Assembly: GCA_034620365.1 (NCBI GenBank)
Contig: JAQGEQ010000023.1
Location: forward strand, 372,001 to 436,000
Direction: 5' to 3'
DNA length: 64,000 nucleotides
From: Pegea sp. RAD2-039
Taxonomy: Eukaryota > Chordata > Thaliacea > Salpida > Salpidae
Shown here: piece after piece, positions 12,801 through 47,200 of the stretch
Position numbering within the stretch: the stretch's first letter is position 1
How the letters are laid out: each line of letters begins with the position of its first letter
The notes under the pieces: generated by a model
What the model was told of the DNA's origin: nothing
Databases searched by the model: none
Seen by the model: the letters and a program-made list of their open reading frames with translations, nothing else
Program-made: the position numbers and the translations under genes

Positions 12801-15800
12801 CAACATTTTATGGATAGTAGTAAGCTCAGTGATGCGAGACGAGACAGATGTGTGTCTAGCCCAGATAGAGTGCCCGGAAAATTGTGAATGTGAAGGCTCT
12901 AAAGTGACTTGTAGCGGATTAACTCAAATACCAACAGACCTACCAATCACAATATCAGTATTGTAAGTATCTTTAACGTTCGTCAATCGAATCTTATAAT
13001 TAGCTTATTTTAACTACAGAATTTTACGCCTTAACAACATTGAAGTGATTTCGAATAATAGAGCTTTTCAAAAGTACGCCTCTTTGAAAAAGATTGATCT
13101 TTCAAACAATCAAATTTCAAAGATTGAAGACGGGGCATTTCAGGGAGCAGTTAGTCTGACTGAGTTGTAAGTTTAAATCGATTATATAAAGAAACACAAA
13201 TTTGTAAAATTATTTATTTTAAATTTAACTGTCAAATATTTGAAAAGTTATTTGAGCAACTTTTCTATTTTCTTGGATATTTTGATGCAATTCTTGGATT
13301 AAATCCGAATATAAGTTACTAATATTACAACAGAAGCTAATTCTCAGTAAAATTCTTTATCACCACTTTCTGACCAAGAGCTGGTTTGATTAGAGTGTTG
13401 ATGACAGATTTATTTTCAGGCGGCTGAATGATAACAGACTGAATGATATTCGAGGACAGATGTTTACTGGATTAAGCAATCTGCAAAATTTGTGAGTAAT
13501 CATCATTTGTAGTTTGGTATCAATTGTGTCGAGTTGTTTTCAGGACGATACTTTTTTCGATAACAAAATCTGAAGTTGCTGTTTACATTCGGCTTGTATA
13601 ATCAAACTATTTGTTTTTTGCTTACACTTTAATAACTAATCTGAAAAATGTCCCAACAATTTATTTGATCAAATTTGTTAAGTTGTATAAAAGCAAATAA
13701 TACTTTGAATACTCGTCTAAAAGTACGGGAATGTAAACTAGCGACGCTGGTTTTAATCTTACGTAAAGATCAACAAACTTAATAAGAAAGTCTACTAGAT
13801 CCTATCGGCATCTTAACCTTTGAAAACTCGTTAGTTAAAATGTCTACAACAACTTTAATATGAATGCTTTTGACAGCGTTTACTCTAATAGTTTGTAAAA
13901 AGCTGTTTTAATACTTTTAATTTAAATACTTTTATAGACAAATTCGAAACAACCGATTAACTTGTCTCGGTAATCATTCATTTGTTGGGTTGAGAAACAT
14001 TCGTCATCTAGATGTGTTTTCAAATCATATTTCAAGTATTGATCAAGGAGCTTTTTCATCTCTTGTAAAACTGGAAACATTGTAAGACATTTTTTTGAAG
14101 TTTTTCATTTTAACATTTTAGGCGTCAAACTTTTTGAAGGTCTCTGTAACTTCTTTTTGAGTTATCACTTTAAAGTTATCACTTTTAAACAATTAGCAAT
14201 CAAGAAATTACGAAGCTTCGAGAAAAATTACCGCCTTAAAACTTCAATCTAAAAGTATTCTTTAACGAAGCTGACTACTAAAGTGATTTTTGACGGAGTA
14301 ATTAAATCTTTCTGACTACAACAAATTAAGAAAAAAAAAACTTCAGTGAAGAAGCTCTTTGTAGAACAGGATGTTTTAAGCATCGGAATCACTACTTAAT
14401 GTTTGCTAAAAATATTAAAATCTCATTAACTATATTCTTCTTATCATTGTAGTCTTCATGCTAAAAATGAGAATCTTATATTTTTGGCGCCGAAGTTTTA
14501 GAATAAAATTAGAATTTTAATTTGAACGTTTGTACATAATGAACGTTGTAAATTTTCAAGATAGCTAAAAGTAAATATTGAATGAGATTGTATTGAAAAA
14601 AGTATGAATGAAAGTTTATTTACACTTGCAGCTCATTGAATTTCAACTTCTTCTGAAAGTTGAGTAAATCTCGGACTTATAAAGTTCATTTCAACATCTC
14701 ACAAATATTTTTTAGACAACTTGATTTTAATTTACTAATTATCAACAGAAACTTGTTATCCAATCAACTTAACTGTAACTGTCGACTTCGGTGGCTACCT
14801 GTCTGGTTACAGCAGCAATCAGTTGCAGCAGGAAACCCTAGATGCTCTCATCCTTACATACAACGAAATATTCCGTTGACTGATATCAATCCAAATGATT
14901 TTCGATGTCCACCGTCAATGACATCGTCTCCTTCATGTACCCCAAAACGAAAATGTCCTTCTAAATGTTCTTGTGAAGGTAAGGACATCATGCCTTAGAT
15001 CAATGATACATTGTTATGGATTTAGGAAGCATTGTTCGCTGTTCACATTCTAACATTCAAACTATTTCAATTGATGATATACCAGATGACGTGACAGAGA
15101 TCTATCTAGACCGAAATAAAATTAAAGAGATCCCCTTAAAGATAAATAAATTTGAACGTCTTCAAAGGCTGTAAGTGATCTTTAAGCTTTGATTCTAATA
15201 TCAAATATTTCAAGTGAATCTTGTACATGTTTGAAAGATGTTTTATCATCTATCTGTGCAGCCATTAATGAATAATTCAAGGCTGTATTAGCTAGCTCAA
15301 CTGTCAAACGTAAATAGAAGCGATTTGTCACAATTAAAGTGGCTAATAAATAATGTTTATGTAGAAATGTAGTTTGCATTTGCATGACCGAAATGTTCTT
15401 TTTTGCAGTGATCTTAGCGAAAATTTTATAACTCGCTTAAACGCTGGTACTTTCAAAAACCTAACACAACTCACTGGATTAATTCTAGCTTACAATAAAA
15501 TCCAATGTATTGAATTACGCTCTTTTAGTGGACTTCATTCATTAGAGACTTTGTAAGCTATCTTTTAATTGACATTGATTAATGTGAATTGATTAATAAG
15601 CTATTTACTATAATATATCTTTTGGGTTTTTTTTACAAACCGTTTTTAGTAATAAATATGTTTCTACAATTTCAAATTCATCAATGAAGTTGGTTGTTCC
15701 AGGTCTTTACACTCAAATACTCTCTCGAGTATCCCTGAAGGATCTTTCACAGATCTCACATCTCTTAGAAGATTGTTAGTACTCATTTAGCTAATTAGAG

Positions 15801-18800
15801 ATTTCCGCAAACGATCTATTTGTATCATATTTTAAAGAGATCTTGGTGAAAATCCTTGGCATTGTGATTGCAATTTGAGATGGATGCTGGCATGGATGGA
15901 TAGACAATCTGTTGATCCCGGAATAGCTAGATGTTCAGGACCTAATCACATGACAGATAGATTGATCATTTCAAATCCAAGCTTTGAGTTTAGATGTAAT
16001 GGTATGAGCGCTTATTTAGAAACAGTAAACATCACCGCAAAATTTGATACTTTTGTAAACTTTAATTTAAACTTTTGAAGTTTGCTTTAAAACCCAATTA
16101 AATTAAGTGTAAGATATAAAACCACTGACGATTTGAAATTATACAAAACTTTTACAGGACCTTTAGATATAGATGTAGCAGCCAAGTGTAGTCCTTGTTT
16201 ATCATCTCCTTGTCAATATGATTCAAGTTGTTCAACTCACAACACAAATATTTATCAATGTGAATGTTTACCAGGTGATTAAAAAACACTTTTTACTTTA
16301 ATCATTAAGTTTTTCGATTTTGCAACCCTGTCAAGTAAAATAATTGTCGATAAAAGCGAACAAACCACATCAATTGATTTCAAACTTCATACTTTTATCT
16401 AAACTAAAATGATGAAGTAAAATTATTTAATGAGTTTAATTTGTAGGATTTAAAGGAAGAAATTGTGAGATACCAATTGATCCTTGCATCCTCAGACCAT
16501 GCTTGAACGGAGCTAGATGTCATGCTCGCAATGAACATCATTTTGAGTAAGATCTTTGAACTTTTATAAAAGCTCACCGATATAATTAGAATATTTTATC
16601 TACTTCTTCACCATCTAGCAAATCACCTTCACCAAATTCAACTAAGTGCTTATGAAAACGCTTTATACATCATAATGGTTACTGCTGTAGGCCATGAGCA
16701 AATAAATAGAACTTAACAACGCCACTTTTCATCAGTTCACTGAACCACTGTTTTAAGAAGTCAATTTTATGTGGTTTTGAATAACTATCAACTTTAGAAA
16801 ATACTTTTTACACTTCAAGTAATTAAAAACTGATGTTTGTACTTTTTAGATGTGCTTGTGCTCCGGGGTTTGAGGGGAAATTATGTGAGAAAAATATAGA
16901 TGATTGTAGATCTTCCCCTTGTTTAGGAGAACATCAAGTTTGCAAAGATGAAATCCAAAACTTTACTTGTCTATGTGCACCTGGATGGTTAACAGTTTTT
17001 TATATTTTCTAGAAAATTCTTTAATTATCTTTTTTTGTTGTTTTGTTATTAAATGTTCCAAGTTTAGAATACTAAGTTGTATTTTATCAATACAGTAATG
17101 AGTTAAGAACATAGAGTTAATTTTTGTTGTTAAGATCTAAAAATACAAAAAACTTCTTTATCTAAAAAAATAGCAGCTTTACATTGACTTGTTCATTGTC
17201 TTAGATTGAATGTAATTAAATAATTACTCTTCAATTTTAAGATTAAATAATTTGGCCTTAAAAACAGGGGAGGGCAAAATTGTGATGAAAAGCTACTCGA
17301 CAAATGTGCTGTTGACAGCCCTTGCCTTAATAATGGTCAATGTACAAATTTGTTTGATACTGAAGAGCCAGCATACAGGTTGGACCACTCTTTTAGAGTT
17401 TGTGCAATTAGTAATCTTATCTATTTTCAATTATAGATGTAGCTGTACAAGTGAATATAGAGGTGTTAACTGTACTGAACGATTTGAACCCTGTCAAAAT
17501 CATAAATGTGAACATGGAGCTACTTGCCTAGAGGATTTTTCCTCTGTGTTTGGCTACCACTGTATATGTCCAGTAGATTACACGTAAGTACAATCAGAGT
17601 GAAAGTCAAAGTTTCATATTAGTTGATACAATTCTATTACCTAATTGTTGATGTTGAAATACAATACTTTTTGGTTTGTGTAATTTAGCTTTATTGGCAT
17701 TTATGAATAAGTAAATGATGTTATCTGTGTTGTGAATAAACATATCATGAACATTGAAACTTGCTCAAGGAGTTTATCTTTACCTTTGTAAGTCTTCTCG
17801 ACTCCTTTGTTTTGGTTGCATAAATTATAAGTAAATGCTTCAGTACTTTTAAGTTTCTTTCGATAAAAAAGGTTCTAAAAATTTATCGATAGAAGAATTT
17901 GGTAACAATTTAAACTTATTTTAAGATAAATTTTTTGCTTGCTTGGAAAAAAGCTTTTAAATAAAAATACAGCTGACAATTGTTCAAATGATCGACTAAT
18001 TGAAACAGTAACTCAGTTTATTCTGTCGTAAGCTTTCGAAAGTGTTTTATTTGTCAAGTTTCTATTTTCATTAAAACTTATATGAAAGCTCTTACATTTA
18101 ATCTTTGAATTTTTAATGAAAAATAATTCTGATATTTTGATCAGATATTGACTAGATTAGATTTTAATTTATCTTACTACTATTCGTGTTAAAAAATTGT
18201 TTAATATAAAGCTTCTTCACATACTTTCTGTTTTATATCAAGCAATAAGTAATCATCAGCATTCAGAACTGACAGTACTATAACGATAACTTCAAATAGA
18301 TATTGAGATGTAATAACAAGTTTTCATACATCATATTTAAAACGGTGAACAGTTTAATTTCGACATAACATATTTTGACGTATAGTTGTAATCCAAAACA
18401 AGTATTTGAAAGAGCCTCAGGCTTTAGTAAAATTCAAATAAAATACAATGACAAAAAATATATTTTTATACAACTATTAATCACAGTTGTAACATTAAAA
18501 GCTCGTTTATACTGACACAATTTGGTTTTTTTCTTTGATATGATTTGATATTAAGAAAAAGCTTATTCATGTTCTTTTCAAACAATGTGTACTTGTATCT
18601 ATAAGTATCAGATTAGTAAACAAATTTTCTATTTTTAAATATATCTTGTTCATAAATATATTAATATCTTCATTAAAACTGAATCAAAACGTAGAGGTGA
18701 TTGACTTTAATTACGAAGACAAGCGCTAAAATGAAATTATTTAAATAAACAATGGGTTTTAATAAATCTACTCAAAATTCTTTTGTTATGCTAACCACAC

Positions 18801-21800
18801 AATGATAAATCAATAAAACAAAACCTTGTTCTTACAGGGGCCAGTATTGTACTTTCTTCCAAGACACTAAGATCAATGTACTTCAAGATGATCCTTGTTA
18901 TAATAATGATTGTCAAAACGGAGGTTCATGTCAATCAAGTAGAGGAAACATTTCTGGATATCAATGTCGTTGTTTGCCTGGATATTCTGGTCATCATTGT
19001 ACTCAAGTAAGTTTTAGGAAGCTTAAATCTAAAACTACAGAATTAAATCACTTTTATTATCTTTAATCTGATTGCTTTGTCTGAATCTTTTTGTTTTAGT
19101 TGACAAGTTTACAATTTATTCAAAACGGGAGCTTTGTTGTATTGTCGCCGATAGAGCTACAAAACGGAGAAGTTTCATTCACGCTCCGAATGTCTACATT
19201 ACAGGTTAGTAACATAATGAAGATTCTCACGACTCTACATTTGCTTGTTGAACATGCTTCATTGACTCTTAAGATCAAACTAGGATGATTTTACGTAAAC
19301 TATGAAGGTATTTGATGCAAACTTCCAGGTGCTTAATCATGGCTTGGTAATTTGATATTTACCAGGAATGGTTGCAGCTGGTTGAGTAAAATTAAAACTG
19401 AAATTTGTTAATTATTAATTCGAACAGCTGATTAAACACCAACGATGTAATGTGTTTAATGGAATCACATAATCGTTTAAATTAAAATACTTTAGTCATG
19501 AATTAGATAAATTTATAGGATTTGTAACTTATACGATTTAATATCAATTAATTGTTTGATTTTAATCTTTGAAATTACTAAACTTCGTTTATCGACACAT
19601 TTGCTGGTGATAGGAAAAAGGGATTTTTCTTTTTATGAGTCTGGAAACCATCATTGTGGCAGCAGAGTTTTTCTCTGGACATGTGAAAGTGATGTTGGTT
19701 AGATCAGAAGATGAAATGAAAAGCGTTTATAGTCCTGTACCTATAAATGATGACCAGCCACATAAAGTAATTAAATAAAACTTCAAATTCCTAATTACCA
19801 CCAATACTAATTCAGATTCACATTCGAGTTAATGTGACTTCAATTTCTTTTTCATTGGATGATGATCGAATGATTACTGTTCGTCTGCATGGCCCACCAC
19901 CAAATGGAGAGTTATCTTTTTCATCAAAGATTCATTTAGGTGGAATCAGTCAAGATATGCTTGATGACAGCAGCCGTTATTGGTTCTACAGCAACTTTAC
20001 AAGTTTTAAAGGTGAGTTCTATCTTCATCTACAAACTATTTTGAATAAATAAATCATTATCATCGTATGAATCAATTATTAACTTTCTGTTTCAGTCTTA
20101 CTTTAGTATTATGCTAATATATTGACTCAAAACGTCAGTAAATGAACTTCAACCTTTGTAGGGTTCTTCAAAGTTATCAATGATTGAGTTGTGGTAGTGA
20201 AGCTTATAAGTTCACTTCCATATCTCATATTTACTCTGTAAACTTGTACAATAACAAACGACCAATAATGATTAAAAAGGCAAGTGAAAAAATTTAGGTA
20301 TCTAAGCTCTCAATCACACTTAACGGCAAAAGTAGTTCAATTGATAAAAAGTTTTCTAGAAAAGTAGAAAAAAAAACGTTTTTTGAAAACCTTTTTGTGA
20401 AAGAATTTTCATGAGAAAAGCAAACATTTAGTACACGCTTTTAAAATGACATCTTAATAAGTCTTATATTTACTTTGATCACAGACAAGAATAAGGTCCA
20501 AGTAAGTCGCAAGTAAAAGTTGTTTTGATTTAGGTGGTTTAGTAAAGTCATAGTAAGATAAGCATAAAATGGTTTTATATTTCTTATTTATTTCTATTTT
20601 CTTTTCAATTTCAGTTTCTTCTGACTCATGAAGTTTTGAGACTTTTCTAAGACTTTACTGTAAAGGTTTTACTGGATTCTTTTAAATTTTTACTTTTCTT
20701 ACGACTTCAAAATAACAAAAACCTTTTCCAAAATACACAACATTGACCGAAGCATTCAACTTGGTTTAAATACTTAAGCTATTAAAATGTAGTTGAAAAT
20801 AGACTTTTATAGCCTCATAAAATTCATTGCTAATTCAAACTGTTTAAGTAATTTTGCTGAGCTTTAAAACATTTCATTTTATGCCAACGATGCTAAAAGT
20901 GATTCGATAAATGCTTAATAAAACTCGTAGTAGTAACAAGATAATATTTGCTGAGTAATAAGTTTATTGAAGCTTTGAAAATACTTTCTACAAACACCAT
21001 TTGTTTGCCGATAAACAAATCGGCCAATTAATGCCAAAGTGATATAAAAAGTTTGTCTATCTCCAGGTTGCCTCCTTGGACTGCAGATAAATAATGAGAT
21101 TTACGATTTTCAATCAATTTCCAGTCTGCAAGGAAACACAGCAAGCATCTCTACAGGATGTGGAGTAGATGTAGTTGAGAGATCATGTAGCTTAGAGTGT
21201 CGACATGGAGTTTGTAGAAATTTAGCGAATGAAAAGATGGTATGTGAATGCGATGGAGGATTTACAGGTATAAAGACGATGAAGTGATATTTACATGATG
21301 TTGATGGAATACTGCTTCAGGTAAATTATGTGGCATCCGCATCATGTCTTCGATGAAGTTATGTCCGAACTCAAGAGCTTACTATTGCGTCCATGGAAGA
21401 TGTGTGGCTGGAAGCGGTCAGAACACTGCAGAAGCCTTTTGTCAGTGTGACGCAGGTCTCGTCTAATCTTCAATCTCAACTTTGAACCCAACTGTCCACT
21501 ATCTGTAGGTTACATAGGCGAAAGATGTGAAAAACCCGAGCAATGTACCAACATTGACTGCGGTCCAGGCAAATGTGTACAAGGACAAAATGGCTTTAAA
21601 TGTTTATGTCCGAGGCGTTTCATTGGTTTACATTGTCAATCAAGTATGTTCGATTTTTATATTTTATTTTTACAGTCCCTTAATTAAGAATAAAAAAATG
21701 ATGAAATATTTAGAATAAATATAAACCGGAAAGGTGCTGAAATTTGAAAGATTTTGATTAAATAAGTTTCGACAGAATTTCAATTAGTTGTTAATCGTTT

Positions 21801-22283
21801 ACAACTTCAACTGAAAGTTCGAGAAAAGTTTTAATTTAGAAATTCGTTAAAATCAAATTTTTAATTTCCAAAATTAATGTTGAAAGTTTGATATTTTTCA
21901 ACAAATTTTGTAATCGATTATCTTCTTCAAATGCTTCTACAGGAAGATGCCGTGGAAGAAAAATCCGTAAACATCTTCAGATAGATCTTCCACAGTCTGA
22001 AACTCTTCAAAAATCTTCAAACTCAACAGACAGCTGTCATAGTGTAAAACCCTTCACTACAGTTGTATGCAGCGGGCGTTGTGCTGCGAACCGATTCACA
22101 CGTCGTTATGGTAACCAAAGTAGCGCATCACGTACATCTACTTCGCGACGCACACTTTGTTGTCAACCGTTCCGCATATTAAAAAAGAAGATTCGATTCC
22201 AATGTAGCAACGGCGAAATTACAACTCGAGTTATTAAGAAAGTTAGAAAATGTGTTTGCAACGCTAGATGTCAACCGAAGTGA
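818..22283 (+). CDS. slit: Slit guidance ligand, copy A (complete, 34 exons)
   Basis: Secreted extracellular-matrix ligand of Robo receptors; the family acts in axon repulsion and cell migration. Splicing at consensus GT-AG sites with matching phases gives 1534 residues plus TGA, close to the usual length of about 1500. Domain order: signal peptide (1-22), D1 (to ~207), D2 (208-432), D3 (433-~660), D4 (to 852), EGF1-6 (853-1113), laminin G (1114-~1300), EGF7-9 (to 1421), cystine knot (1422-1534). LRRs sit on 72-bp phase-2 exons or multiples of them, the typical Slit arrangement. The ATG was chosen because it opens a hydrophobic leader directly followed by the LRRNT cysteines. Introns range from 47 bp to 4.3 kb. 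The neighbour is a second slit gene facing it. D1 shows only four LRRs. Seen: all exons and domains. Known: Slit/Robo function. Inferred: exact splice sites, without transcript support. Confidence 0.95.
2524..2687. promoter_or_regulatory. two identical CACGTG E-box 12-mers
   Basis: AACCACGTGACT occurs at 2524-2535 and again at 2676-2687, 152 bp apart, within intron 3 of slit-A. The CACGTG core is bound by bHLH factors of the Myc/USF/Clock/HIF group. A 12-base exact repetition in such A+T-rich sequence suggests a functional element, but binding is only inferred. Confidence 0.35.
5715..5783. promoter_or_regulatory. paired palindromes ATGACGTCAT and GTCACGTGAC
   Basis: A perfect 10-bp CRE/ATF-type palindrome at 5715-5724 is followed 49 bp later by a perfect 10-bp E-box palindrome at 5774-5783, about 370 bp upstream of slit-A exon 4. 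Both contain CpG in CpG-poor sequence. A candidate intronic enhancer for bZIP and bHLH factors; function is inferred. Confidence 0.35.
10421..12744 (+). other. slit: slit-A exons 6-12: D2, the Robo-binding LRR domain
   Basis: Exons 10421-10562 (LRRNT, CHSYSCPLRCNC), then five 72-bp LRR exons 10697-10768, 11071-11142, 11304-11375, 11540-11611 and 12188-12259, then the LRRCT 12572-12744 ([16 protein letters not shown]). Five LRRs is the normal number for D2. In the family the concave face of D2 contacts the first Ig domain of Robo. Every junction is phase 2 inside a conserved Leu codon, except the cap junctions, which are phase 1. The 10421 acceptor was preferred over an AG at 10393-10394 because only 10421 keeps the phase. 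Confidence 0.94.
12821..14978 (+). other. slit: slit-A exons 13-17: D3 LRR domain
   Basis: Exons 12821-12962 ([21 protein letters not shown]), 13020-13166 (two LRRs), 13420-13491 (one), 13938-14081 (two) and 14749-14978 ([20 protein letters not shown], plus the first cysteines of the D4 cap, CPSKCSCEG). Five LRRs, as usual for D3. The first exon has three in-phase acceptors (exon starts 12818, 12821, 12830); 12821 gives 142 bp, the same as the slit-B counterpart, and was chosen for that reason. The 14749-14978 exon is almost identical to its slit-B counterpart, unlike all other exons. Confidence 0.92.
14731..14983 (+). repeat. homogenised tract, slit-A copy
   Basis: 253 bp: 18 bp of intron, the 230-bp exon 17 and 5 bp of the next intron. 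It matches the inverted slit-B copy with two differences, at 14914 (G, synonymous Pro) and 14921 (A, Thr versus Ala). Outside these ends the introns do not align and the adjacent exons show normal paralogue divergence. Confidence 0.93.
14749..16001 (+). other. slit: slit-A exons 17-21: D4 LRR domain
   Basis: D4 starts inside exon 17 and continues in 15026-15170 (rest of cap plus one LRR, IYLDRNKIKEIP), 15409-15552 (two LRRs), 15703-15774 (one [19 protein letters not shown]) and 15838-16001 ([21 protein letters not shown]). Four LRRs is normal. In the family D4 contributes to dimerisation and heparan-sulphate binding. The intron 14979-15025 is only 47 bp, the shortest in the gene. All junction phases agree with the LRR pattern. 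Confidence 0.93.
16158..19006 (+). other. slit: slit-A exons 22-27: EGF modules 1-6
   Basis: Exons 16158-16274, 16447-16546, 16850-16987, 17268-17378, 17437-17583 and 18838-19006. EGF3 is of the calcium-binding type: it begins NIDDC and carries the Asp/Asn-hydroxylation pattern C-x-D-x4-F-x-C-x-C (CKDEIQNFTCLC). The block ends at a phase-0 junction before the laminin-G domain. In vertebrate and fly Slit the processing site that separates Slit-N from Slit-C lies around EGF5/EGF6. I see no clear protease consensus here and do not assign one. Confidence 0.92.
19100..21267 (+). other. slit: slit-A exons 28-31: laminin-G domain
   Basis: Exons 19100-19204 (FIQNGSFVVL), 19614-19766 (EKGIFLFM; VAAEFFSGHVKVML; PVPINDDQPHK), 19816-20011 (HIRVNVTSISFSLDD) and 21067-21267 (GCLLGLQINNE, then into EGF7). 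The first two internal junctions are phase 0 and the third is phase 1. The pattern matches the ALPS/LamG module of Slit. The 19614 acceptor is a weak TAG with little pyrimidine in front, but the frame and the slit-B counterpart support it. Confidence 0.9.
21067..21643 (+). other. slit: slit-A exons 31-33: EGF modules 7-9
   Basis: Exons 21067-21267 (EGF7: CSLECRHGVC), 21321-21455 (EGF8: YYCVHGRCVAGSG) and 21509-21643 (EGF9: CTNIDCGPGKC), separated by two 53-bp introns. The donor after 21455 is GTCTCG, a poor match to consensus, but reading on would meet a stop within three codons, and the next exon restores frame and pattern. The slit-B counterpart also has an atypical donor here (GTTACC). Confidence 0.9.
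21943..22283 (+). other. slit: slit-A exon 34: C-terminal cystine knot
   Basis: Final exon, 341 bp, coding for the CTCK domain: CSGRCAANR, then CC, then FQCSNGEITT and a C-x-C-x3-C end (KCVCNARC) before QPK and TGA. Compared with slit-B, the loop between the CSGRC and CC motifs is long and rich in Arg/Ser/Thr, and the linker in front of the first knot cysteine is also longer. The knot is a dimerisation/matrix module in this family. Confidence 0.93.
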
Positions 22284-22535
22284 AAATCGGAATTCAAATA
22301 TTTGTGCCAAATTCTTTACAGTGTCTAAATCTTCCAGCAGAGATTGACTTCCAGATCTGAAGTTTGATGATCTTTTACTGAAATTACAAATTTTATTATG
22401 TGCCTTTTGTTGTAACTTTTTTGTTCGTTTTACTTCGTTTTCAATCACCAATATTACATGGTTCTGAATTTTTATATCTTAATCACTACGTCTGATGAAA
22501 TGGACAGATTTGTGTTTATTAACAAAAACTCAATT

Positions 22536-22678
22536 AATAAAAACCAACTTATCAACTCCCAGTGTTATAGATACAAGATCATTTTCAGATTTAGTTGATG
22601 CAAGTTGGATTTTGAGACACTTTAGACTTGTAAACTATTTCTAATGGATCAAAAATTCATAATCTTTTAATAAATAAA
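22536..22678 (+). terminator. poly(A) signals of slit-A
   Basis: AATAAA hexamers at 22536-22541, 22669-22674 and 22673-22678 lie 250-400 bp after the stop codon. Any of them could end the transcript. With such A+T-rich sequence, single hexamers occur often by chance, so only the position supports them. Confidence 0.4.
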
Positions 22679-22679
22679 A

Positions 22680-26820: not shown

Positions 26821-26849
26821 CTCGTTCAGTTTTGTTGAGTGCTTAGAGA

Positions 26850-27290
26850 TCAGTATCATTTGCTAGTTGTCATAGCAACATACAAAAGAGACCGTTGAAG
26901 CCATTACGGTAAGTAGATGGTTAGTTGAAGAACGCAAGCAAGTCAATTAGAGTTGAGATTTTGTTGTGAGATACTCGAAGAAGTAGTGACAATTTTCAAT
27001 CTTAGTGCTGGAAGCACAAGGAAATTGGAGCGTTCATCTAACACGATACTCAATGAACCGTGGCCGCTATTATGATATTATACGACGGTTTGTTCTTCAC
27101 ACGATTGATCAGTACGTGACCTTTGTTTGGTCTTCACCCTTGGACCCGTAAAGCAAACGTTAAATCTGCTTTTTATCGATTTGGTCAATATATTGAAAGG
27201 ATTTCAATCTTCTGGAGGTTGTTGTTCCATCAAATAGATTCAAATAGATGGAAGAGAAACACGTGGTGAGTTATTTGATGCTAGTTGAAG
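26850..27290 (+). promoter_or_regulatory. candidate promoter or non-coding first exon
   Basis: A stretch with more G+C and several CpGs than its surroundings, starting at an X-box. On the plus strand, GTAAGT follows GCCATTACG near 26909, and a small open frame starts at ATG 27053 (MNRGRYYDIIRRF..., 32 codons), with GTACGT inside and GTGAGT after AACACGTG near 27265. This looks like the 5' end of a transcript, coding or not, but no downstream exons were found before slit-B. I cannot name it. Confidence 0.25.
26866..26879. promoter_or_regulatory. perfect RFX X-box, GTTGTCATAGCAAC
   Basis: All 14 positions fit the RFX/DAF-19 X-box consensus GTHNYYATRRNAAC. X-boxes usually sit close upstream of ciliary or sensory-neuron genes. 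Here the motif lies at the edge of a 400-bp less A+T-rich patch with consensus splice donors (GTAAGT near 26910, GTGAGT near 27265) and a short open frame at 27053-27151. No ciliary gene is recognised nearby. Confidence 0.45.
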
Positions 27291-27299
27291 TGTAGTTTC

Positions 27300-31060: not shown

Positions 31061-31346
31061 CATAAAATATTGATAATTAAGGAGCAGAGATTACAGATTA
31101 AACAAACTTACTTCTTATCTTAATTACATTTTACAACATTGTTATCACCTCTAAATAAATCAATTTGAACTTTGTAAGTTTGTTTTCTTTAACTGAAGTA
31201 AACATTAAAATATTGATAATTAAGGAGCAGAGATTACAGATTAAACAAACTTACTTCTTATCTTAATTACATTTTACAACATTGTTATCACTTCTAAATA
31301 AATCAATTTGAACTTTGTAAGTTTGTTTTCTTTAACTGAAGTAAAC
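31061..31346. repeat. 143-bp tandem duplication, two copies
   Basis: Two head-to-tail copies, 31061-31203 and 31204-31346, nearly identical: a C/T difference at 31149 versus 31292, plus a small difference at the very start of the unit. Sharing such as TTAAGGAGCAGAGATTACAG in both shows a young duplication. The unit has no open frame of interest and sits midway between the two slit genes. Confidence 0.95.
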
Positions 31347-34300
31347 TTAACTTATTTGCCTTTAAGCAGTTGGATAAATATGATGCCTAGAAAGAAATTC
31401 TTACCATTTAGTTAAGAACAGTTATTTTCAATTTTCTAAATTGAAAAAATGAGCATCATTTAATAAACATAATAGTATATTACAAGCAAATAGAATTCGA
31501 TATTGGTATTCAAGTAACAAATAAAAGTTCATATTATAAAAATAAATGTAATGTTAAGACCAATTAAAATAATTTGAATTATCTATCTATATTATATACA
31601 CAATGCTTGTAAGACCATTAATACTTTTGATTAAAATGCTAATAAAACTGTAAAAACTAATATCACTTTTATGAAATGCTGGCAAATAATTTAAAAAAAA
31701 AAGAAAATTAAAAAGTTGTTCATGACTTTAGAAAAAATTATTGGCAAAAATATAAAATATTTATTTCAATTTTTAATAAGTTAGACTAAAGAAAAGCCTT
31801 ACCTTTATAAGATTATCTGTTTTAATGAATAAATTATGTTTAATTTCTAATTATAAACTTTAATCTTATACATTGTAAATGTACTAGTAGCTTTCAGTGA
31901 AAGTCATTACCAAGTTAAACTTCATATTACCTTTATCATTACTATATTGGTTTCATTTCCTTCTGAAAACGGTTGATTATCAACTAAATGAAAAGAAATT
32001 GCTTGCCTTATAACAATCATACACAAAATTGGATATGTTTTTAATCATAAAGATTGAAAAATTGTCTGAGAAAAATCTACTTTTCAAATTCTTCAATAAT
32101 TTTCAATATTTTGAGTCTATACTTTAAAGTAAATTCAGCAGATGTTGTTTTAATTTTAATCACAATGTTTGAAACAAACTGTTCCAACTTTATTCACAGA
32201 ATTTAGTAATCATCAAAATTGTTTTCAGTTTAAACATCTAAACTTTTGACTTTTCGAGAACTTTTGAAATACTGATGATATTTAAGGTGACTTTTTGCGA
32301 CATAAACACCTTGATTGATAGATCTTATATGATTCAATAGATGTAATGAATATCTCTTCTGCGTCATTAAATCTAATCTCTTATGTATTAGAAGAACAAA
32401 GATCTTAAGAATCAGAAGAAGATAGTGGATTAAACTTTTCAATTGAACATCTTTTTGAGTGTCTTTTATCACTAATGATGCAGTAAAATCTTTCAGAGTA
32501 CTCTACAACTAATCTTCAAATATTGCGGAGTTCAAATAAATAAGGAAAGAATTTTGCTTTTTACATTTATCTTTTTTATGAGCTTCAGAATGATTAAGCG
32601 TTGAAAAAGATTTATGAAGTTATAATAAAAACATTTGAAGAAGAAATCTTAGAAAAAAGATCTCATTCTTGTTTTTATTTCATTGCAAACAAAAGATTAT
32701 GTTCTCTAGCTCTTCTTTTTTACATTTTCATCAATTTTCTTAAATTATTTTTTCAAGAAACTGTAAATATAAGAAGGCTTTGTTTTCTTTTTTCAATCTT
32801 TCTTACAAAAACATTTCTTAAAAAAATTTAATCAAAAGATTATTTACTTTTTGAAAAGTGATTATGTATTATTATTTAAAAGTTTAATAATCATTTAATA
32901 TAACAGTTTGAAACTTAACAATTCTGTCAATCATTAGAACAGAAAGACACAACTTCTAGATTAAAGAACATATTGATCAGTTTAGACTTTAAAAGTATTT
33001 AAGCTTCGAACTTTTGTTGGATTTTCAATCTTTTTTTTATTCAAATATCATCTTTTTATTACTCTAATATGACATCTAGCGATGACTCTAAATACTGTTG
33101 AAATTATAATGTCTTTAACTAAAGAACAAAAAAGTGTTTTAAATTTAAAAAGACATTACTTGTTTTAAAAGATCATGATAGTTAGTTTTAGAAAAAAAAC
33201 TAGATTAGATAAGAAAATCTGAAAATGAATATCAAATAATGTCTAAATAGATAAACTAAAGTTACCACAAATGTTTATAAGCATAAGTGTACAAAACTTT
33301 TTGAACTATAAACGTTTTATATTGTTGTAATGTAGTTAACATTGAAATGTTATCAAATAAAAAAGACACAAGACAATAAAATTCTCTGAATTGTTTTTAC
33401 TAGTGCTACACGATTGTATAAAACCGTCAAAGTTTTCTGTTTGCTTGTATGACAAGTTTTTTGGCTTGGTGTTGTTAGCCAAGGAGATTTTACTAACCAT
33501 CACAGTAAAATGACTCAACAAGCAAAATTTGTTTCGTTTTTGATGATTGTGTTTAAAATATTAGGTGGGAATTTTATGTTCTGTATAAATTTAATTCAAG
33601 TTAGAAAAACTAAACTTCCAAAAGTTAGAAGTTAAAATATTTTCTTGAAGTGATTAACTAGCTTCTGTAAAACTAACCTAAAACATTAAACTGTTTTTAA
33701 ATTTATTCAATAACAACAAAGGTATCAAAGAATCTTATATTACTAAATGAAAATTATTTATTTGTTATATTTTGCCACTAATAGTCAGTCAATTAAAGAG
33801 TTTTAAAGCCTTCCTTAAAAGTAAATATTGCTGTAACAAAAAGTCTCTAACTGAAACTATTTTTAAACTTTTAAATATTTGTTTAAGGTAGGCGCAAGTT
33901 AAGTTACTTTTGTCCAAGAAAGTGATTCAAAAAATAAGAATTTTAATGAAATCAAATAATAGATCTTGTCGAATATATTTCCTAATTTTTTGATAAATCA
34001 AACAAGATAAGTTTTATATATACACAGGTATTACTTGACCTAAATGATATGTAAAGAATATTTGTAATTTAATTTAAAATATTTTATTCAGATTATCTTA
34101 ACAAAAGTTATCGAAAAACATCTTGTTATATAAATACGTTTATTGGTTAAAATAACATCATTAAAAGTCATTTGAACATACAAATGAAATTTTAGTAGAT
34201 TCTAAATAAACCAGAATCACTTTAACGATTTAAAATCTGGGCGATAAAGTCTTTATCTTATTGCTTATCAATATAAGATGTCCTAATGATTGCTGATAAC

Positions 34301-37300: not shown

Positions 37301-40300
37301 GGAACCGTCCAGATTTCTTCTTCGCAGCTATATGTGTCTTCAGTATCTTCTTTCATTAGAATACTTTGTAGAATACTTTTGATTGGGTTAGTTTTTGGGT
37401 TTTGATTGAATCTGTTGACAGTTAAGTGGAATCAAGAAGAAGTACAACAGAATTAATTGTTTAAAATCAGAAAATATTTCAAAACTTTTCACTGAGACAT
37501 TTGTAGCTATTTACAAATAACATTAATCAAGTAAAAATACTATTTTAATCAACCAAGAAAGATTTTAAGACAAAATTTTTACAATTTCAGTAAAGATATA
37601 AGAATTGTTTATAAAGTTTGTGAGTAAAAAGGAGTGTTGAAGTTGAATGTCATTTTACTTTTACTCAATTCAACCACTTCAGTGTTTTGGTAAAAAGTTT
37701 TTTAAGAATTGCTCAAAAACGAAAAAAATTTTTAAGAATTTTTTAATATTTTGCATGTAATAAAAACTGAATATTTTTAGGAAATATTTTAAAACTATTT
37801 TTTATAATAAAATTTGCAGAAATCTTTTATTCAGATTTACAGTACAAAAGATAAAAAGTATAAAAATTGCTTTTAACAAATTTCAGAAAAGCATTTTATA
37901 AAGAAGTTGAAATAATACTTTGTTTCAGTCAAGTTTAAATACCATCAGATAAAGGAAAATTACTCTGTTAGTTATTTAGCAATTTTCTACAACACCCCCT
38001 TAGGCTTTTTGCATAAAATGTCAATTTAACTTCTGATCCTAAAATAACATTGATAAATATAATTATTTTATAATTTAAGATTTTATATTATAAAATATTT
38101 TAATAATCTTAAATAGTTGTTCTAAAATAAATTAATATTTTTGGTAAAAAAATCATAATTTTATTGATGATGTTTTATCGAGTTAAATTTTATTTTAATT
38201 TAAATCATATTTATCTTGAGTTAATCATACTTATTAATTCAGTTGTAAGCTAAAACGTGATTTGATTTACTATTTTTATAAATAGTTTGAATCAAAATAG
38301 ATTTTTAACTTTATTTTACTTGATTCAAGGTATTTATGAATTTTTAAAGTTTGTAAAAAATCGATTTAAAATATTTTCTCAAATAACTTTCAACTTCAGA
38401 CTTTTGCCAAAAACACTTTTTTATACAAGTTTACGGTAATTTTCCAAACGGTCAATTTAAAAATAAAGCAAATATAGAAAATGAAAATAATGATTAAAAA
38501 CGATGTTTTAATATTTATAAAATAATATAAACAACAAAGACAAAGCTAACAAATAATATAAATAAATTAATTTATAAAATTATGTCGAATATTACTAATT
38601 ATAGTAAGGAAACTTAAATGAGTCTTAAACAGTGAAATAATATAATGAAAAAATATCATCAAAATAGTAAAATTATTGTTAATATAGAATACAAATTACA
38701 TGAAATCTTAATTTCTAATAACAATTATGCTTTGGTTTCTGTTTAGAAATTTATTAACTCGTATTTAATGTTTAAAACAGGTATGTTTGGTGAGTGAATT
38801 TGAAATAATTTTGTGCTTACCTAATTTCAACGATCTTAAAGTGTCTTTACTTAAATTTATAATAAAATTAAATGATCAATCTAAATAAGCTTCAATGATA
38901 GTGATTGAAAGTACAAACTTTTTCTCCGAAAACTTCTTTATTTTTCAACCTTAACAGTTTCTATATCCTAAAATAAACTATAAAAATCTGAAACTTCATC
39001 TTATCAAATGAAATATGTCAGATCTTCTTAAATTGATAGTTCTCTTATAACAAGTAAGTCTTTGTTTCATTTATTTATAATAAATCACAAACTATTTGAT
39101 AGTTTCTGATTCTTTTGCGATGTATCATCTTTATGTTTTGGCAAGTTGCTCTTAAAGATGTATCTTATATGGGCGTGACCTTGTTTAAAACCCAACTGGA
39201 TATATCTAAGCACAACATTTTGATTTCATTCAGTGATGATTGGTTGATGATAAAGTTTTTGTTTTCATTCATTTTAGAATTTGATCTTTCAAGCTTACTT
39301 CATGGAAACTTACTGAACAAGCAAGATGGTTTATTTTTGTTGGCAAACTTTTTGTTCTTTCGTTAAGTGTTTACAAGATAACATAAGACTTAATTGTAGC
39401 CACAGGAATTCAGACAAATATTTCAAGAGTTAAAACAGTAGATTCTTAATATTCTTATTTATTTTATTGTTGAAATGATTTAAGAATCTTTTATTTTTTA
39501 TACAGAAAAAAACTTTTCATTTTATAATTTGAAATTAAATAATTTAGATGACATATTTGTAAATGGCAAGTTTTTAAAATAGAAAAACTTGTAGAATTTA
39601 TGCTTTTGCAAACTGATTTTTTATATAATAGATAATTTATTTTATAATTATTTACGTTGTTCTAAGTTTTTTCCAATTATTTGATTTCTTAGCATTTTAT
39701 TTATAGTAATAAAAAAAATTTAAATAGAATTCTTGTTAATGTATCAAAAATACTTTTGTAGTTATCTGAAACATTTTGGTGAATATTCACAACTTTTATA
39801 ACAAATGAGCTGAAAGCAATCATTTTAAATAATAAATAACAAAAATAAATTTATCAAACACCATAGAAAAAATAATCTAATTTTAGAAGCAGCCCATAAA
39901 AATTAATTTGACAGAATTTGAAAGAGTTTGAAAAAGTGATTAGGATTGGTAGGTGGGTGGGTGGTCGTCAAATCTTCTATTTTCCTAACTTCTTCATTGT
40001 GCTTCTATATAGTCTAGATATAGTGAGGAACGAATTGTAGCTTGTCGGTTTCTAATCATTCTTACATTTGAAATTATAGCGATTATAATCAAGTTAAAAC
40101 TGAATAAACTCGAAACAGGGTTTCCAACAAAGATTTTTCACATTTGAAAAAGTAGAAATACTTTTATTCGAAATAAATGATATTTTAATATTTTTAATTA
40201 CTTTATTTAGAATTATTGTAGAAAGAAATTTGCCAAGAGAACTTATTTGATATTTTCGTCTTTGAATATTTTAAACACAAAATCTTTTGAATATTTACAA

Positions 40301-40800
40301 ATTAATTCAGAACCTAATTTCTAGATTTTTACCAAATAATAAATCATTTAATTGAAAAATATTTTTCTCGTCAGAATAATCTATATTAGAAAGCCAATGC
40401 TTAAAAGTAAATTGCTTCTTTAAAATATTTACTATGAAGTTGACACGCATGAGTAAACCAGTTTAAAATCACTTTTCATTCATAAAAATAGTCGTTAGCT
40501 GTGAGTATTTTGTATGCATAGTAGTATATATTCTTCATCTTCTGCTACTTCCAACTTATCAACTCTATTTTTTAAACAAGTAAGTAATTTTTCATGAAAT
40601 TATACAATATTTTATAAACAAACAACACTGGAACATATATAAGTAAAATAAAATGAAAAAGAAACAAATGAAACGAAGAAATAGCAAGATAAGGACTCCA
40701 GACAAAAATTGTTGAAGATTACTTTCCATTTGTTTATCAAAATACAATCAAAGTATTGGCAGAAAAGAAAACATGAACCGCTTAATCTAAGCAAAAATCA
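31347..40800. other. intergenic, no gene recognised
   Basis: A+T-rich sequence with scattered short open frames only. Points of note are a 17-bp palindrome at 34944-34960 with a CACGTG at 34984-34989, and a G-rich run (GGTAGGTGGGTGGGTGG) near 39949-39965. No coding exons, RNA genes or mobile-element termini were recognised. Confidence 0.4.
34944..34989. promoter_or_regulatory. palindrome CTGTTACTGAGTAACAG plus CACGTG
   Basis: Perfect 8-bp arms around one central G, followed 23 bp later by a CACGTG E-box inside AGTCACGTGGG. The surrounding ~150 bp are less A+T-rich than the flanks. A candidate cis-element between the genes; the factor is unknown. Confidence 0.3.
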
Positions 40801-40824
40801 GTAAGGAGGCCACTAAGAGAGATC

Positions 40825-40852
40825 TTTATTCAAATTTACTTGATCATTTATT
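40825..40852 (-). terminator. poly(A) signals of slit-B
   Basis: TTTATT at 40825-40830 and 40847-40852 read AATAAA on the minus strand, about 106-135 bp after the slit-B stop codon. This is a suitable distance for a short 3' UTR, shorter than that of slit-A. Confidence 0.5.
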
Positions 40853-40957
40853 CCGAGGCACTTTGTGAGCTTTAAAATCTCTGGCCAGAAAACATTAGAA
40901 AAAATGTCATGCTTGAATTTGAAGGCTTAGTCTGTCACTAAAAATCTCCAGTTAACA

Positions 40958-41250
40958 CTAACAAGTCTTTAAACATCCGCATCTACGGATTTTTGAGATC
41001 TTTTGAGTGATAATTCTTCCATTTGAACATTTCATTTTTGCTTTTCGAACTTTTGATTTGATTGCTCTACAGCAAGTGGCACTTGAATTATTATTCACAC
41101 TACTGATGTGGCAAGGACCATTACATGACATGGTCGTGTAAGATCGAAGTGACCGGCAAGTCACTTGATCTGTTGTCGAATTAGCAGCACCTGTAAGCTT
41201 GGTCACCGAGAAGTATTGACGTGATCTGGTGCCAGGACACTTCTTAACAC
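40958..41250 (-). other. slit: slit-B: C-terminal cystine knot exon
   Basis: Last exon, 293 bp, beginning [12 protein letters not shown] and containing [22 protein letters not shown] and the terminal CGCLKTC followed by TAG. It keeps the knot cysteines of slit-A but has a shorter loop of Asn/Ser type (SVNNNSSAT) before the CC pair and a shorter entry linker. Confidence 0.93.
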
Positions 41251-44200
41251 CTGGAGACGAAACAGTTCTAGTTAAAAGCTATTTTTTTAGTAAAAAGGCC
41301 ATTTTAGGTATTTGGGATCTTACGTATTTGGCAAGTTTTTCCAGTATACGCTTTTGGACATTTACATTGGAAACCGGACGGGGTGGAAACACAAGTACCC
41401 CGGATGCACTCCAAGCCTCCACATCCACCTCGATGCTGACATCGTGATCCTGAGTATCCTGGAAGATACAAAAAGAAGCTTTACTAAAAAATCTAAGATT
41501 CGCTTGAAAGTTGATGATCTAATGGAAGTTATTTTAAAGAGGAATTTGTTTATGTTAAAACTCGTAGTAAGTCATTAAATAAAGTTTTGTTAATAAATGA
41601 ATCTTCAATTAAATCTTTGACAGCTAAGAAGAATCAGTTTTTGAAATACTCGATGACATTTAGATGACAAAAAAGTTTTTTTTTTCATTTCTTAAGATAA
41701 GTTTTTCTAAACAACGAGTAATTACAGAATCCTAAAAGGTTTGTCATCTGTAACTCATTAAATTAGAATAAACAATTTAATGTCTAAAAAACATTTGACT
41801 TTCAAAAAAAAGATCATCTTTTGGTAACCTGCATCGCAAGTACAGAACGATAGAAGAGTATCAGAAGAGATGAAGCATTTTCCATGCTGACAAAAACTAT
41901 TTCCAGACGATGGTTGACATTCAATTGCTTTCTCCTTATTCGGAAGCTCACATAAGATTCCTATGTAGAAAAATGTCAATAAAAGAATAGAATTGAAATC
42001 TCTTACCTGTATAACCATTTTTACAAACACATTTCATTTGATTTTCAGTGCTTATGATACAACTTCCAAATAAACAGTTCAACGAGCAGTTCTTCTCAGT
42101 ATTTCTTACAGTATCCCAACTTCCAGATTTGATTCCTTCAACATTTCCTCGCAAATCTTCTAAGCTTGAAAATTCAATCATCTCACCGTTGATGAAGATA
42201 GCTTGCATTGATCCTAGTTATTAAATAAAAGTGAAAATATTTGTTACTGACAAAATAATCAAACCTTTAAAGCTAGTGGTATCACTGAAAAACCATTTCC
42301 GTTTTCCGACCTCAGAGACTTCAGTATCAACTCCTCCAGCTTGAGCCACGGTCGAGTTGATACTTATCGGAGAACTGAATACTTCAAATGTACGAGACAC
42401 AGTTCGACCATCATCAACTCTTAATGACACAAAACTTCCGTTCAGGTTTACTTCTACCTAAATTTCGGTATTAAAGATAAAAATAAGAATTTTTTCAGCA
42501 AGAAAATTACTTTATGAGTAATTCCATCGTTTATAGGAGCTGGACTGTATAGAGTAACTGAATCTACATCTCCAAAGTATCTTTTAAGTCTCACATGACC
42601 TGAGAATAATTCAATCGATACAAAGTTGTACATAGATCCTACAGCAGGTGAAGTTCCCCAATAAAACAGAATTCCATGATCCTATAAATATCAAAACTGT
42701 TTTTTAACTTTTACTTTTTATTACTACTTTTCAACGAGTTTATAATATGTACACTAATAGTTTGCAAATTGAATAATACGATTACCTAAGAAAAATAAAC
42801 TCAATTAATCGATGTTTTCAGTAAATGCTTTATATACTAAAAAAAAATTTAATTAAGTTTTCAGTTTTGCTATTATACTAATTACCAAATTAAAAATTTT
42901 CATTTAAAGGCCAACGAGATGACTAACTGTTTGCATATCTTTAGTGCAATTGATAGCTTGCCCCTAAAAGCCAATTCTAATCTAATTCAATCTAACTAGT
43001 TTGTAGCTGAATAATCGAGTGTTATTTATTTTGCATTTGGTTGCTGAATTGACTTTATAAAATTGAGTTATAATTATTGAAACTTGGCAGCTTCTTACAG
43101 CACTTGTTTAAAATCATAATTAAATTAAACGTTTCAAAAAAACTAGATTTTCTTGAAATAATTTCTTTTATTAATTTTTTGGATAAAATTTTAAATCAAA
43201 AAAAGTTTATAAATTTGTAAACCAATTTTTTTTACTTGAATAAACGAGATGAACAAAATGATTGAGCTAAGAACTGATACTCCCAAATTACTTCTGGGAT
43301 GAGATTTTAAATCAACAAAACTCCCATTTTGAAAAAAAGATATACTTGTCAACTGCAACAAAATATTTTTGATATCATTTTTAAAGATCGGATTAAAAGT
43401 TAAATTGAAAAAATTCAATTTTCTTTGTTTAGTAAATTGAAGTAGTCAACTTACAGATGCACAATCAATGTCAGTGAAGCCTGGTAAACACTGACATCTA
43501 TAACCTGAAATAGTTTCTGAGCTTGCTTGGCAAGTGGCTCGATTTTTACAAGCATTATTTAAACATGGGTCATCTTGCAGAATATTAACTCTGGAGTCTT
43601 GAAAGATATTGCAAAATTGACCGCTGTAAAAAAAAATACTTGTCTTCAATACAAACTTATTTTTTAAGACTATTTTGAACTAAACACTTTTATTTTGACT
43701 TTTTTAACTATTAGTTCAGTAATAGTAGCTTGAAAATAAAGGCTCTCCAATAAACCTGTAATCTCCGACGCAAATACATCGATAGTGATGAGGAGCATAT
43801 GAGTCCTCGACACATTCACCTCCATTCTGGCATTTATTATTTTGACATGGTCGGTATCGTTCATTACAAGTCTCACCACGATAATCAATTGTACATTCGC
43901 ATCTGTTGTTGTAAGAAATCTTATAATTCATTCTTATTTTTGCTTGATAAGAAACAGTTAGTAATCTTACGCGCTGTTGATTTAATAAAAGGTGAGAATA
44001 TATTTTAGGAATGTTAAAGTTTTTAAGTGGGTTAAGTGTTTTGATAAGAATTTCGGCAAAATAAAATTAAAAAACCAAATACGAATGAAACGGAAAATAC
44101 ATCTTTACAAACTTGTTTTATAGCTCTCGAATTTTATAGCAATATAAAATAAGTCGTAAAAAAAGTATTGAAATAAAATGGAATTCTTTTAACATGAAAA

Positions 44201-47200
44201 TGACAACAAAATATTTAGTGTGAAAACATAAATGAATAAAGATCAAATCTTGCTTGCCTGTAAGGAGGATTTGAACCTTGTGGAAGACTAACACAATGAC
44301 CATCATTTAAACAAGGTTGTTGCTCCTTACAAATGTCTTTAACTTCTTCTGTACAGTCTTCACCAGACCTGGTAGTTTTTAGAATTAACAAAAATATTTA
44401 AATAATTTAAACCATCTTTCACTGACCATCCTTGCAGGCATTCACACGTAAAGTTGTTGATACCGTCCACACACACTTGATTTACTCCCAGACAAGCTGA
44501 TGGAAAACAATCATCTATGTTAGTTTCACATGTGTGTCCACTAAAACCAGGTTGACACGAACATCTAGTGGAAAATTGGCTTAGTTACAATAATTTCTTT
44601 CAATTCTTTCTCTTACTCGAATACTCTTTCATTTCTAGCATGACATCGGCCTCTATTACTACAAGGATTTAGTATGCAAGGATCAATTGGTGTTTCACAG
44701 TTACGACCTTTGAATCCTGAATCAAATATTTAAAGATTTAAGACAACAACTTAGCAACCATCTTTTTCATTTTTCGAATTTCAAACTCTTGTCAATTTTA
44801 AAGTTGTAAGTTGTTTCAGGAGTCACTTTTGACTCGCACTCGTCAATATTGAGATTCTAATCAATTCTCACCTAGCTTACAGACGCACTGGTAGATTTCT
44901 GTTGCATGAATATTGCAGGTTGATCCATACTGACATGGTGATGAAACACAAGGATTACACTTCGCTGCTACTGCTATGTCTAGTGGACCTTTAAAATTTA
45001 ATTGGCGTTTAAATAACACGCAAATAACTTCACAAAATATAATAGCTGTCTAGTAAACACAATAAAAGTAAACTGTAGTCATCCTAACTCAGCAGATCAA
45101 AAATTTAGATTTTCAAATAAAGCAAATCTTAATAATAAGATTCTGAAAAGATATTTTGAATCAATTCTTAGCAACTGTTTGAAAGAGGACTTTGTCGAAC
45201 TATATTCAAGAGTAAGACAGTGCGTAATGATATATCATCGGTGAAAACCAATTTGGTCGTTTACAATAAACAAAAGTTAATATAATAGTTGGTTGTTTTT
45301 GGTAAGAAAGCGAAAATATTTGTTTAAACCACCACGTCACACCGAGTCAGACTGTTTAATCGTTCATTACCTTTTAAGGAATGATGCCGACGTAAGCATT
45401 TGTGATATCGATCTATAGGAAGATCAAAAGATGAAATCAATTTTTCTTTTCAGTTTCTATATTTATCAGATTGGTATTAAAACAAATGATAAACTTATCA
45501 TCAAGCAGAAAGTTCAATAGAGTTTCATTTAGAACTATGATAAATAATCTTTTGTGTAATGAATTTGATTTATAGAACAAGAATTAATAGGATAAGATTT
45601 TGACAAGGACTGGGTATTTGGTGAAAAATTGTGTCTAGTTATTTTAAAATTAAAGAGCGGTTTACAAAGAAGTGTTGAAGCTTTTCTTCAGTACTTTGTT
45701 CAGCTAAAACAAGTAATAACTTACCACTACATTGGAAGTTTCTTGGTTCATTAATACCAACAAGGCGATTAGCCATACTAGATGGTCCGGCACAACGGGC
45801 TATACCTGTATCGATACCGGCCTCTGACAACCAGCCAATTAACCACCTTAGGTTGCAATCACAGTGCCAAGGGTTCGCTCCTAGCCCACTGTTTGTATAA
45901 AAAGTCTTCAATCAATTTAAAATACCGACAAGGTTATAGATTAGGAAAGAACTTACAGACGACGCAGATTAGTTAAGTGTGAGAAGGAACCTTCTGGTAT
46001 ACTTGATAAATAGTTTGAATGAAGAGATCTATAAAATAGATAAGAAGATCAATTTTGGTTCGAATATTTTCACTTGCTGCACACTTACAATGTTTGAAGA
46101 GACGTAAGACCTGTAAATGCCCTTATCTGCACACATTGGATTTGATTGTATGCAAGTAACACAGACCTTAGTGAAGTTAAGTTAGCGAACTGGTTTGAAA
46201 CAATCCGTGTAATATTATTACCGCTAAGATCTCTGTGAAAATAGATCTTGAATTATATTTGTTATCATAAAAAACAAGACATACAGTCTTTGAAGACGTG
46301 AAAGTTTGTTGATACTCAGAGGTATTTCTTTAAAAATATTCCCATTTAAATATAACCCAGTTACATCTGCTGGGATATCATCAATTGGAATTGTGTCAAG
46401 AAGAGCATCTGAACATCTCACGACTCTATCTGAACAGACAAATCAGGTTACAGTATTCAAATAAATCTAAAATATTCTTACCTTCACAAGAACATTTAGA
46501 AGGACATTTTCGTTTTGGGGTACATGAAGGAGACGATGCCATTGATGGTGGACATCGAAAATCATTTGGATTGATATCAGTCAACGGAATATTTCGTTGT
46601 ATGTAAGGATGAGAGCATCTAGGGTTTCCTGCTGCAACTGATTGCTGCTGTAACCAGACAGGTAGCCACCGAAGTCGACAGTTACAGTTAAGTTGATTGG
46701 ATAACAAGTTTCTGTTGATAATTAGTAAAGTAAGTTTTGTTTTTTTCTATTGAAGTTTACCTACAAAGTTTCTAAATTAACAAGAGGATTTAAAGATCCA
46801 TCATCAATTGTTTTAATATCATTGGAAAAAAGATCAAGATGTCGAACAGATTTCAATCCAACAAATGAATGGTTTCCCAAACATGTTAGTCGATTATTTC
46901 TAATTTGTCTGTGAAAAAAAATCAAATGATTTAATCTAAAAAATTCATCTGGAATTATTACTTGGAACTAGTAAACATTTTACTTTTATCAATCATCTAT
47001 TACAATTGAAGTATTACACTTACAAAGATCTCAAGTTGCCTAATCCAAGAAACATTAAGCCTCGGATATCATTAAGATGGTTTTCATTCAGTCTTCTACA
47101 AGTAAACGAACTCTATTATGGTTCTACTTATTTTTCAAATGACGCAGCACTCGTTGTTAAGTATATGAGAAAGACTTACAATTCTTTAAGATTAACTGCT

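Follow-up and report, generated by a model that had tools for sequence, protein, structure and literature searches.

The window considered here, i.e., the whole 64,000-nucleotide stretch of contig JAQGEQ010000023.1 that was analysed, harbours two slit genes, slit-A read from left to right and slit-B read from right to left, which form a convergent (inverted) pair and, along otherwise widely diverged coding sequences, share a single exon that is almost identical in DNA. Non-allelic (interlocus) gene conversion, operating at the DNA level between these old convergent duplicates, very probably offers the best explanation for the shared tract. When the window was compared with itself, positions 14731-14983 of slit-A (forward strand) aligned with positions 46477-46729 of slit-B (reverse strand) over 253 base pairs (bp) with two mismatches, as a preliminary description of this region had reported, and the tract spans one whole exon, 14749-14978 in slit-A and 46711-46482 in slit-B. 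At the first mismatch, position 14914, the A copy has G and the B copy has A in a Pro codon, a synonymous difference; at the second, position 14921, the A copy has A and the B copy has G, giving Thr in slit-A and Ala in slit-B. The elements of the tract are the following:

14731..14983, forward strand: shared tract in slit-A, 253 bp, two differences from slit-B
46477..46729, reverse strand: shared tract in slit-B, DNA match to the slit-A tract
14749..14978, forward strand: slit-A exon within the tract, 230 bp, encoding the D3 C-cap, the D3-D4 linker and the start of the D4 N-cap
46482..46711, reverse strand: slit-B counterpart exon, 230 bp, matching the slit-A exon
14731..14748, forward strand: 3' end of the intron within the tract, 18 bp, with TACTAAT and the acceptor AG
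14979..14983, forward strand: donor GTAAG, the same in both copies; a common donor here, of little evidential value
46712..46764, reverse strand: slit-B intron before the tract exon, 53 bp, a third of it inside the tract

The similarity between slit-A and slit-B breaks off abruptly at both ends of the tract, beyond which the flanks are unalignable. A slightly longer BLAST match (14727-14983, 257 bp, 3 mismatches) gains four bases, one of them mismatched. About 31.5 kb separate the two tracts, which are inverted relative to each other, and in both copies the exon has, by eye, phase 2 at its entry and phase 1 at its exit, with frames and splice sites intact. Searching the genome (105.7 Mb, 387 contigs) with the DNA of the tract returned two matches only, the two slit copies themselves, the counts of these genome searches being lower bounds; no third slit donor is visible, and a third slit gene as source of the exon was rejected for want of any further DNA match. 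The protein encoded by the tract exon gave at least 13 matches in the genome, 11 of which, beyond the two copies, correspond to other cap exons of slit-A and slit-B and to weak hits elsewhere (best E of the rest 0.0026). A megablast of positions 14000-16000 against phages yielded no match, as expected.

Silent divergence was determined exon by exon for 30 exon pairs with defined cores (1304 aligned codons), the exon borders being placed by eye. Synonymous divergence (dS) was estimated by a simple counting method in which saturated values are read as infinite, and the same-codon counts refer to amino acids shared by both copies and specified by degenerate codons. The tract exon exhibits a proportion of differing synonymous sites (pS) of 0.02, a corresponding non-synonymous value (pN) of 0.006, a single difference among 34 fourfold degenerate sites and the same codon at 71/72 positions, whereas the other 29 exon pairs display pS values from 0.58 to 1.15 (pooled 0.77), pooled fourfold differences of 131/214 and the same codon at only 320/660 positions (Fisher P 1.3e-19). 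Four more pairs, partly aligned (three from the 5' end, one LamG-like), resemble the rest with 34/61. The silent sites of slit-A and slit-B are near saturation in every other exon measured, and the silent divergence of the tract lies far below that of the rest of the gene pair, which is one of the signs of conversion that were looked for. The wide synonymous differences previously announced for the other exon pairs were thus recovered in all 29 of them, and the comparison with neighbouring exons, where a similar dS would have told against conversion, placed the tract exon far lower. The number of exon pairs, formerly given as 31, has to be replaced by 34 paired exon-like blocks, including slit-B blocks beyond the window.

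Exons 9-13 and 15-18, around the tract exon, are 54.7-73.0% identical between the copies, i.e., 27-45% different; the two adjoining ones use the same codon at 19/34 (exon 13) and 14/29 (exon 15) positions, and exon 9, another cap exon, reaches 68% amino acid identity, yet with the same codon at only 18/38 positions. The longest identical run in the coding alignment amounts to 164 bases in the tract exon and to no more than 22 in any other exon, whereas 2000 column shuffles never exceeded 30. The tract exon also possesses the longest aligned core of the LRR part, 76 codons, whereas none of the other exons 1-18 exceeds 57.

Another such sign, abrupt boundaries with identity running into non-coding sequence, is provided by the upstream intron edge. 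The last 18 intron bases before the tract exon are identical in both genes (18/18), whereas 5 to 12 of 18 bases match at the same edge of 25 other pairs, 4 of the 30 pairs having been omitted for unclear acceptors and the acceptors of 3 of the 25 (exons 4, 10 and 18) being ambiguous or misplaced by one base. This edge includes TACTAAT, which we take to be a putative branch-point-like stretch. The intron itself measures 667 bp with donor GTAAGA in slit-A, and 53 bp with donor GTAGGT in slit-B. Downstream of the exon only GTAAG is common to both copies, and ten other pairs also have GTAAG in both members (by eye); because GTAAG is a common donor, the downstream boundary cannot be located more precisely than the exon end. 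The spill into both introns formerly proposed therefore holds for the 18 bp upstream and fails for the 5 bp downstream, where GTAAG provides little evidence. Since intron bases lie in the tract, copying at the DNA level is far likelier than copying derived from mRNA, and an mRNA-mediated copy, contradicted by these bases, was rejected.

According to the conversion reading, one exon and its 3' splice signals would have been copied between slit-A and slit-B late in the history of the duplicates. The event may have begun with a break in the exon of the recipient, for whose repair the inverted copy served as template, whether in cis, on the sister or on the homologue, with synthesis passing slightly beyond the exon into the intron and halting where the copies cease to align; the copied exon would bring matching phase and splice sites, leaving both genes readable. 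We infer this repair mechanism and likewise the recency of the conversion. The preliminary description had spoken of a recent conversion tract: conversion at the DNA level is borne out by the codon counts and the intron edge, whereas a single recent event is not established, and repeated conversion fits as well. The restriction of the tract to an exon would need no special cause, because the introns beyond it no longer align, and heteroduplex and re-annealing would stop at the exon edge for the same reason. In the excerpts of PMC3924818 used here, interlocus conversion tracts range from 50 to several hundred bp, the minimal efficient processing segment of yeast is cited as about 200 bp, and conversion at far shorter homology is cited too. 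As far as these excerpts go, the 253 bp of the tract fall within the published range and the 230-bp exon is near the yeast segment. That this particular exon was converted may reflect its core, the longest aligned in the LRR part and near the minimal segment, which expresses a tendency and not a rule, since shorter homology also converts.

Several observations weigh against this interpretation. Strand invasion would be inefficient if the tract exon had previously been as diverged as its neighbours, a difficulty that earlier conversions keeping the exon similar would ease. The two mismatches fall within 7 bp of each other (P about 0.055 for random placement), which may be a weak hint of a patchy tract. 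An unrelated inverted pair, 147 bp at 97.3% identity and 7.5 kb apart, occurs on the same contig (contig positions 2034-2180 and 9661-9807, next to a tandem array), so that slit is not alone here in having inverted segments of near identity. It narrowly misses the minimum length of 150 bp that was applied, together with a minimum identity of 95%, when 284 kb of the contig were compared with themselves as a background control (blastn, word 20, dust on; positions 1-200000 and 362001-446000 of 525,573, the window being 372001-436000), in which six pairs were found, five from two local tandem arrays and the sixth being the slit tract pair; with 0.27% of the genome sampled, this control does not bear on other pairs of paralogues. 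Finally, the data consist of one assembled genome.

Repeated conversion (concerted evolution), in which the tract exon would have been homogenised again and again with a recent last event, overlaps with the conversion reading as a sub-case and is possible, although somewhat doubtful as the actual history. An exon diverged by 30% would be a poor substrate and one that never diverged a good one, the tract exon has the longest core, as mentioned above, and a history of this kind, with events that arose independently in mammals, is described for TLR1 and TLR6 in the consulted part of PMC2077338. A single genome cannot, however, reveal recurrence, and no older eroded tract is evident in the adjoining exons 13 and 15. 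A crossover within the inverted exon pair, flipping about 31.5 kb and joining the 5' half of A to the 3' half of B and the reverse, with the identity as scar or substrate, appears very improbable: inverted copies in equal phase would allow an inversion through the exon to spare both frames, but reciprocal exchange alone cannot render a diverged exon identical, so that conversion would still be needed. An inversion by crossover in addition to conversion, and not instead of it, is possible.

The assembly might also have given one locus the exon of the other by collapse or mis-polishing, short near-identical inverted segments being classic trouble spots, yet this seems very unlikely: similarity is lost immediately on either side of the tract, the two mismatched sites give each copy a base of its own, and neither reading frames nor splice sites are disrupted; moreover, mapping-based polishing would not be expected to move an exon between loci about 30% apart. 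Selection, either on the nucleotide sequence (RNA structure, splicing code or overlapping antisense gene) or on the protein, is an extremely improbable cause, even if the tract exon corresponds to a conserved Slit cap region. Selection on the protein, which the preliminary description had already set aside, was rejected on the codon identity of the tract exon set against the other exons, and near-identity of the DNA extends to the linker, which lies outside the alignments of solved Slit domains; exon 9, itself a cap exon, keeps no such codon identity. A structured RNA was rejected as the cause of identity on a fold z-score of -0.53 (55 of 200 shuffles fold as well) and on the lack of any Rfam match at gathering thresholds within the window, and an antisense gene was rejected on the stops that interrupt all three antisense frames of the tract.

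With the tract exon and the next exon as query, the top three PDB matches are all Slit chains, namely 2v70 (query residues 2-55), 1w8a (2-56) and 2wfh (69-123), among records named Slit homolog 2 N-product, Slit protein and Slit homolog 2 C-product; we take 2v70 to be D3 of human Slit2, 1w8a to be D3 of fly Slit and 2wfh to be D4 of human Slit2. The tract exon represents residues 1-78 of this query, whose first residue, R, was read from the intron AG and the first exon base, the true codon being split and reading Leu. The encoded segment comprises the D3 C-cap, a linker of some 13 residues that the PDB alignments leave uncovered, and roughly the initial ten residues of the D4 N-cap, in agreement with the position first assigned to it at the D3 C-cap and the start of the D4 cap. 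The linker is identical in both copies except at the Thr/Ala site. Slit2 reportedly dimerises through D4 (PMC5807052 and PMC12308364); any effect of the tract on dimerisation is speculation, the exon touching just the edge of D4.

D3 and D4 are, as expected of a Slit protein, related in sequence to solved Slit domains. Against the Slit chain 2v70, D3 without the tract exon scored 133.0 bits for slit-A and 136.9 bits for slit-B, and against 2wfh, D4 scored 177.6 and 160.9 bits, respectively, so that the two comparisons differ in sign, slightly higher for B with D3 and higher for A with D4, and single out neither copy as donor. The best match of slit-A D4 is 2wfh, and in slit-B D4 this chain is tied with the LRRC15 chain 9oib at 160.9 bits each. 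Against the Slit assignment, other LRR proteins outscore 2v70 when D3 is taken without its cap (2v70 ranks 24th for A and 3rd for B), a low rank that may be expected of repeat-rich queries.

The coding blocks of the two genes are located as follows:

881..22271, forward strand: slit-A coding blocks, from the D1 N-cap to the C-terminal cystine knot; a model with gaps, its start and extreme ends undefined
40961..64000, reverse strand: slit-B coding blocks, with three further 5' blocks outside the window, reaching about 2.2 kb past its end

Comparison of stop-to-stop peptides from the two halves of the window revealed 30 collinear coding blocks, including LRR, EGF-like and LamG-like exons and a C-terminal cystine-knot-like exon in both copies. 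A relaxed search contributed one extra LamG-like block, and the 10-kb stretches on either side supplied the D1 N-cap together with two LRR blocks, the B copies of which lie outside the window. The paired blocks of both copies thus display the architecture of Slit, four LRR domains, EGF repeats, LamG and a C-terminal cystine knot, and both genes look near complete from their sequences. Pfam recognised LRR families in the D3-D4 part of slit-A and Cys_knot at its end (E 1.6e-5), whereas it returned 0 families for the slit-B counterpart of this end and 0 families for the tract exon alone. The EGF and LamG labels are presumptive, being assigned from the sequence. At 44252-44257 (reverse strand), an EGF-like exon of slit-B has, by eye, an apparent GC donor (TACAG|GCAAGC) in place of the GT of slit-A, and a GC-AG intron is possible there.

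Both copies resemble the vertebrate SLIT1/2/3 and the single-copy invertebrate slit by their D1-D4 LRR domains, EGF-like and LamG-like exons and cystine-knot-like end. In the part of a 2023 leech paper used here (PMC10071614), slit is stated to be single copy in all invertebrates examined; the present pair differs from that single-copy slit by two convergent neighbours in one 105.7-Mb genome, and departs from the statement if the organism is, as the size of the genome suggests, an invertebrate. Among markers sought as a guide to the organism, 5S was found but is uninformative, and neither COX1 nor Chitin_bind_4 gave a match, the latter result not amounting to absence because its controls gave no signal either. 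No duplicated invertebrate slit was seen among the matches listed in a search of the open-access literature, which gives titles and the starts of abstracts. If the organism is indeed an invertebrate, this old and near-complete pair is perhaps more unusual than the conversion tract.

The nearest published parallel found, as far as the excerpts of PMC2077338 (Kruithof et al. 2007) extend, is the TLR1/TLR6 pair of nine mammals, equally clustered LRR paralogues whose sequences diverged except in a single homogenised region, the LRR C-terminal cap included. The same codon occurs there on average at 96.3% of positions inside the converted region, as against 56.2% in the N-terminal part and 64.7% at the C-terminal end outside it, a contrast comparable to the 71/72 versus 320/660 of the slit pair. 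However, the TLR region covers about 0.9-1.0 kb of tandem genes, with independent events in nine species, whereas the slit tract covers 253 bp and one exon of convergent genes in one genome. With interlocus conversion in general, in so far as PMC3924818 was excerpted, the slit tract shares an abrupt, short and near-identical segment of usual length within otherwise diverged duplicates; its limits coincide with one exon, as expected where introns are unalignable. Human disease conversion pairs are more than 90% identical in the same excerpts, and the exons around the slit tract are more diverged than the usual reported pairs. Apart from these diverged neighbours, nothing was found outside the known range, and the tract is best classed as ordinary interlocus conversion, a well-known type of event, of typical length.

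As a single-exon case it illustrates cleanly how ectopic repair can alter one module of a multidomain guidance protein and leave the rest untouched, and it cautions against gene trees inferred from the tract exon alone, which would misdate the slit duplication. On a more speculative and rather unlikely view, recurrent and possibly selected conversion, as argued for TLR1/TLR6 in the excerpted source, might keep the D3-D4 exon interchangeable between diverged Slit ligands and preserve a common D3-D4 hinge, and the inverted exon pair could also flip the locus, swapping the slit 3' halves.

Other repeats occur along the contig. It opens with some 2 kb of tandem repeats (contig positions 1-2014), which may mark a satellite at the contig end, and another tandem array extends over contig positions 11068-12516. 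Between the two slit genes, positions 31063-31350 of the window consist of a near-identical tandem duplication of a 143-bp unit, the two units being 98.6% alike.

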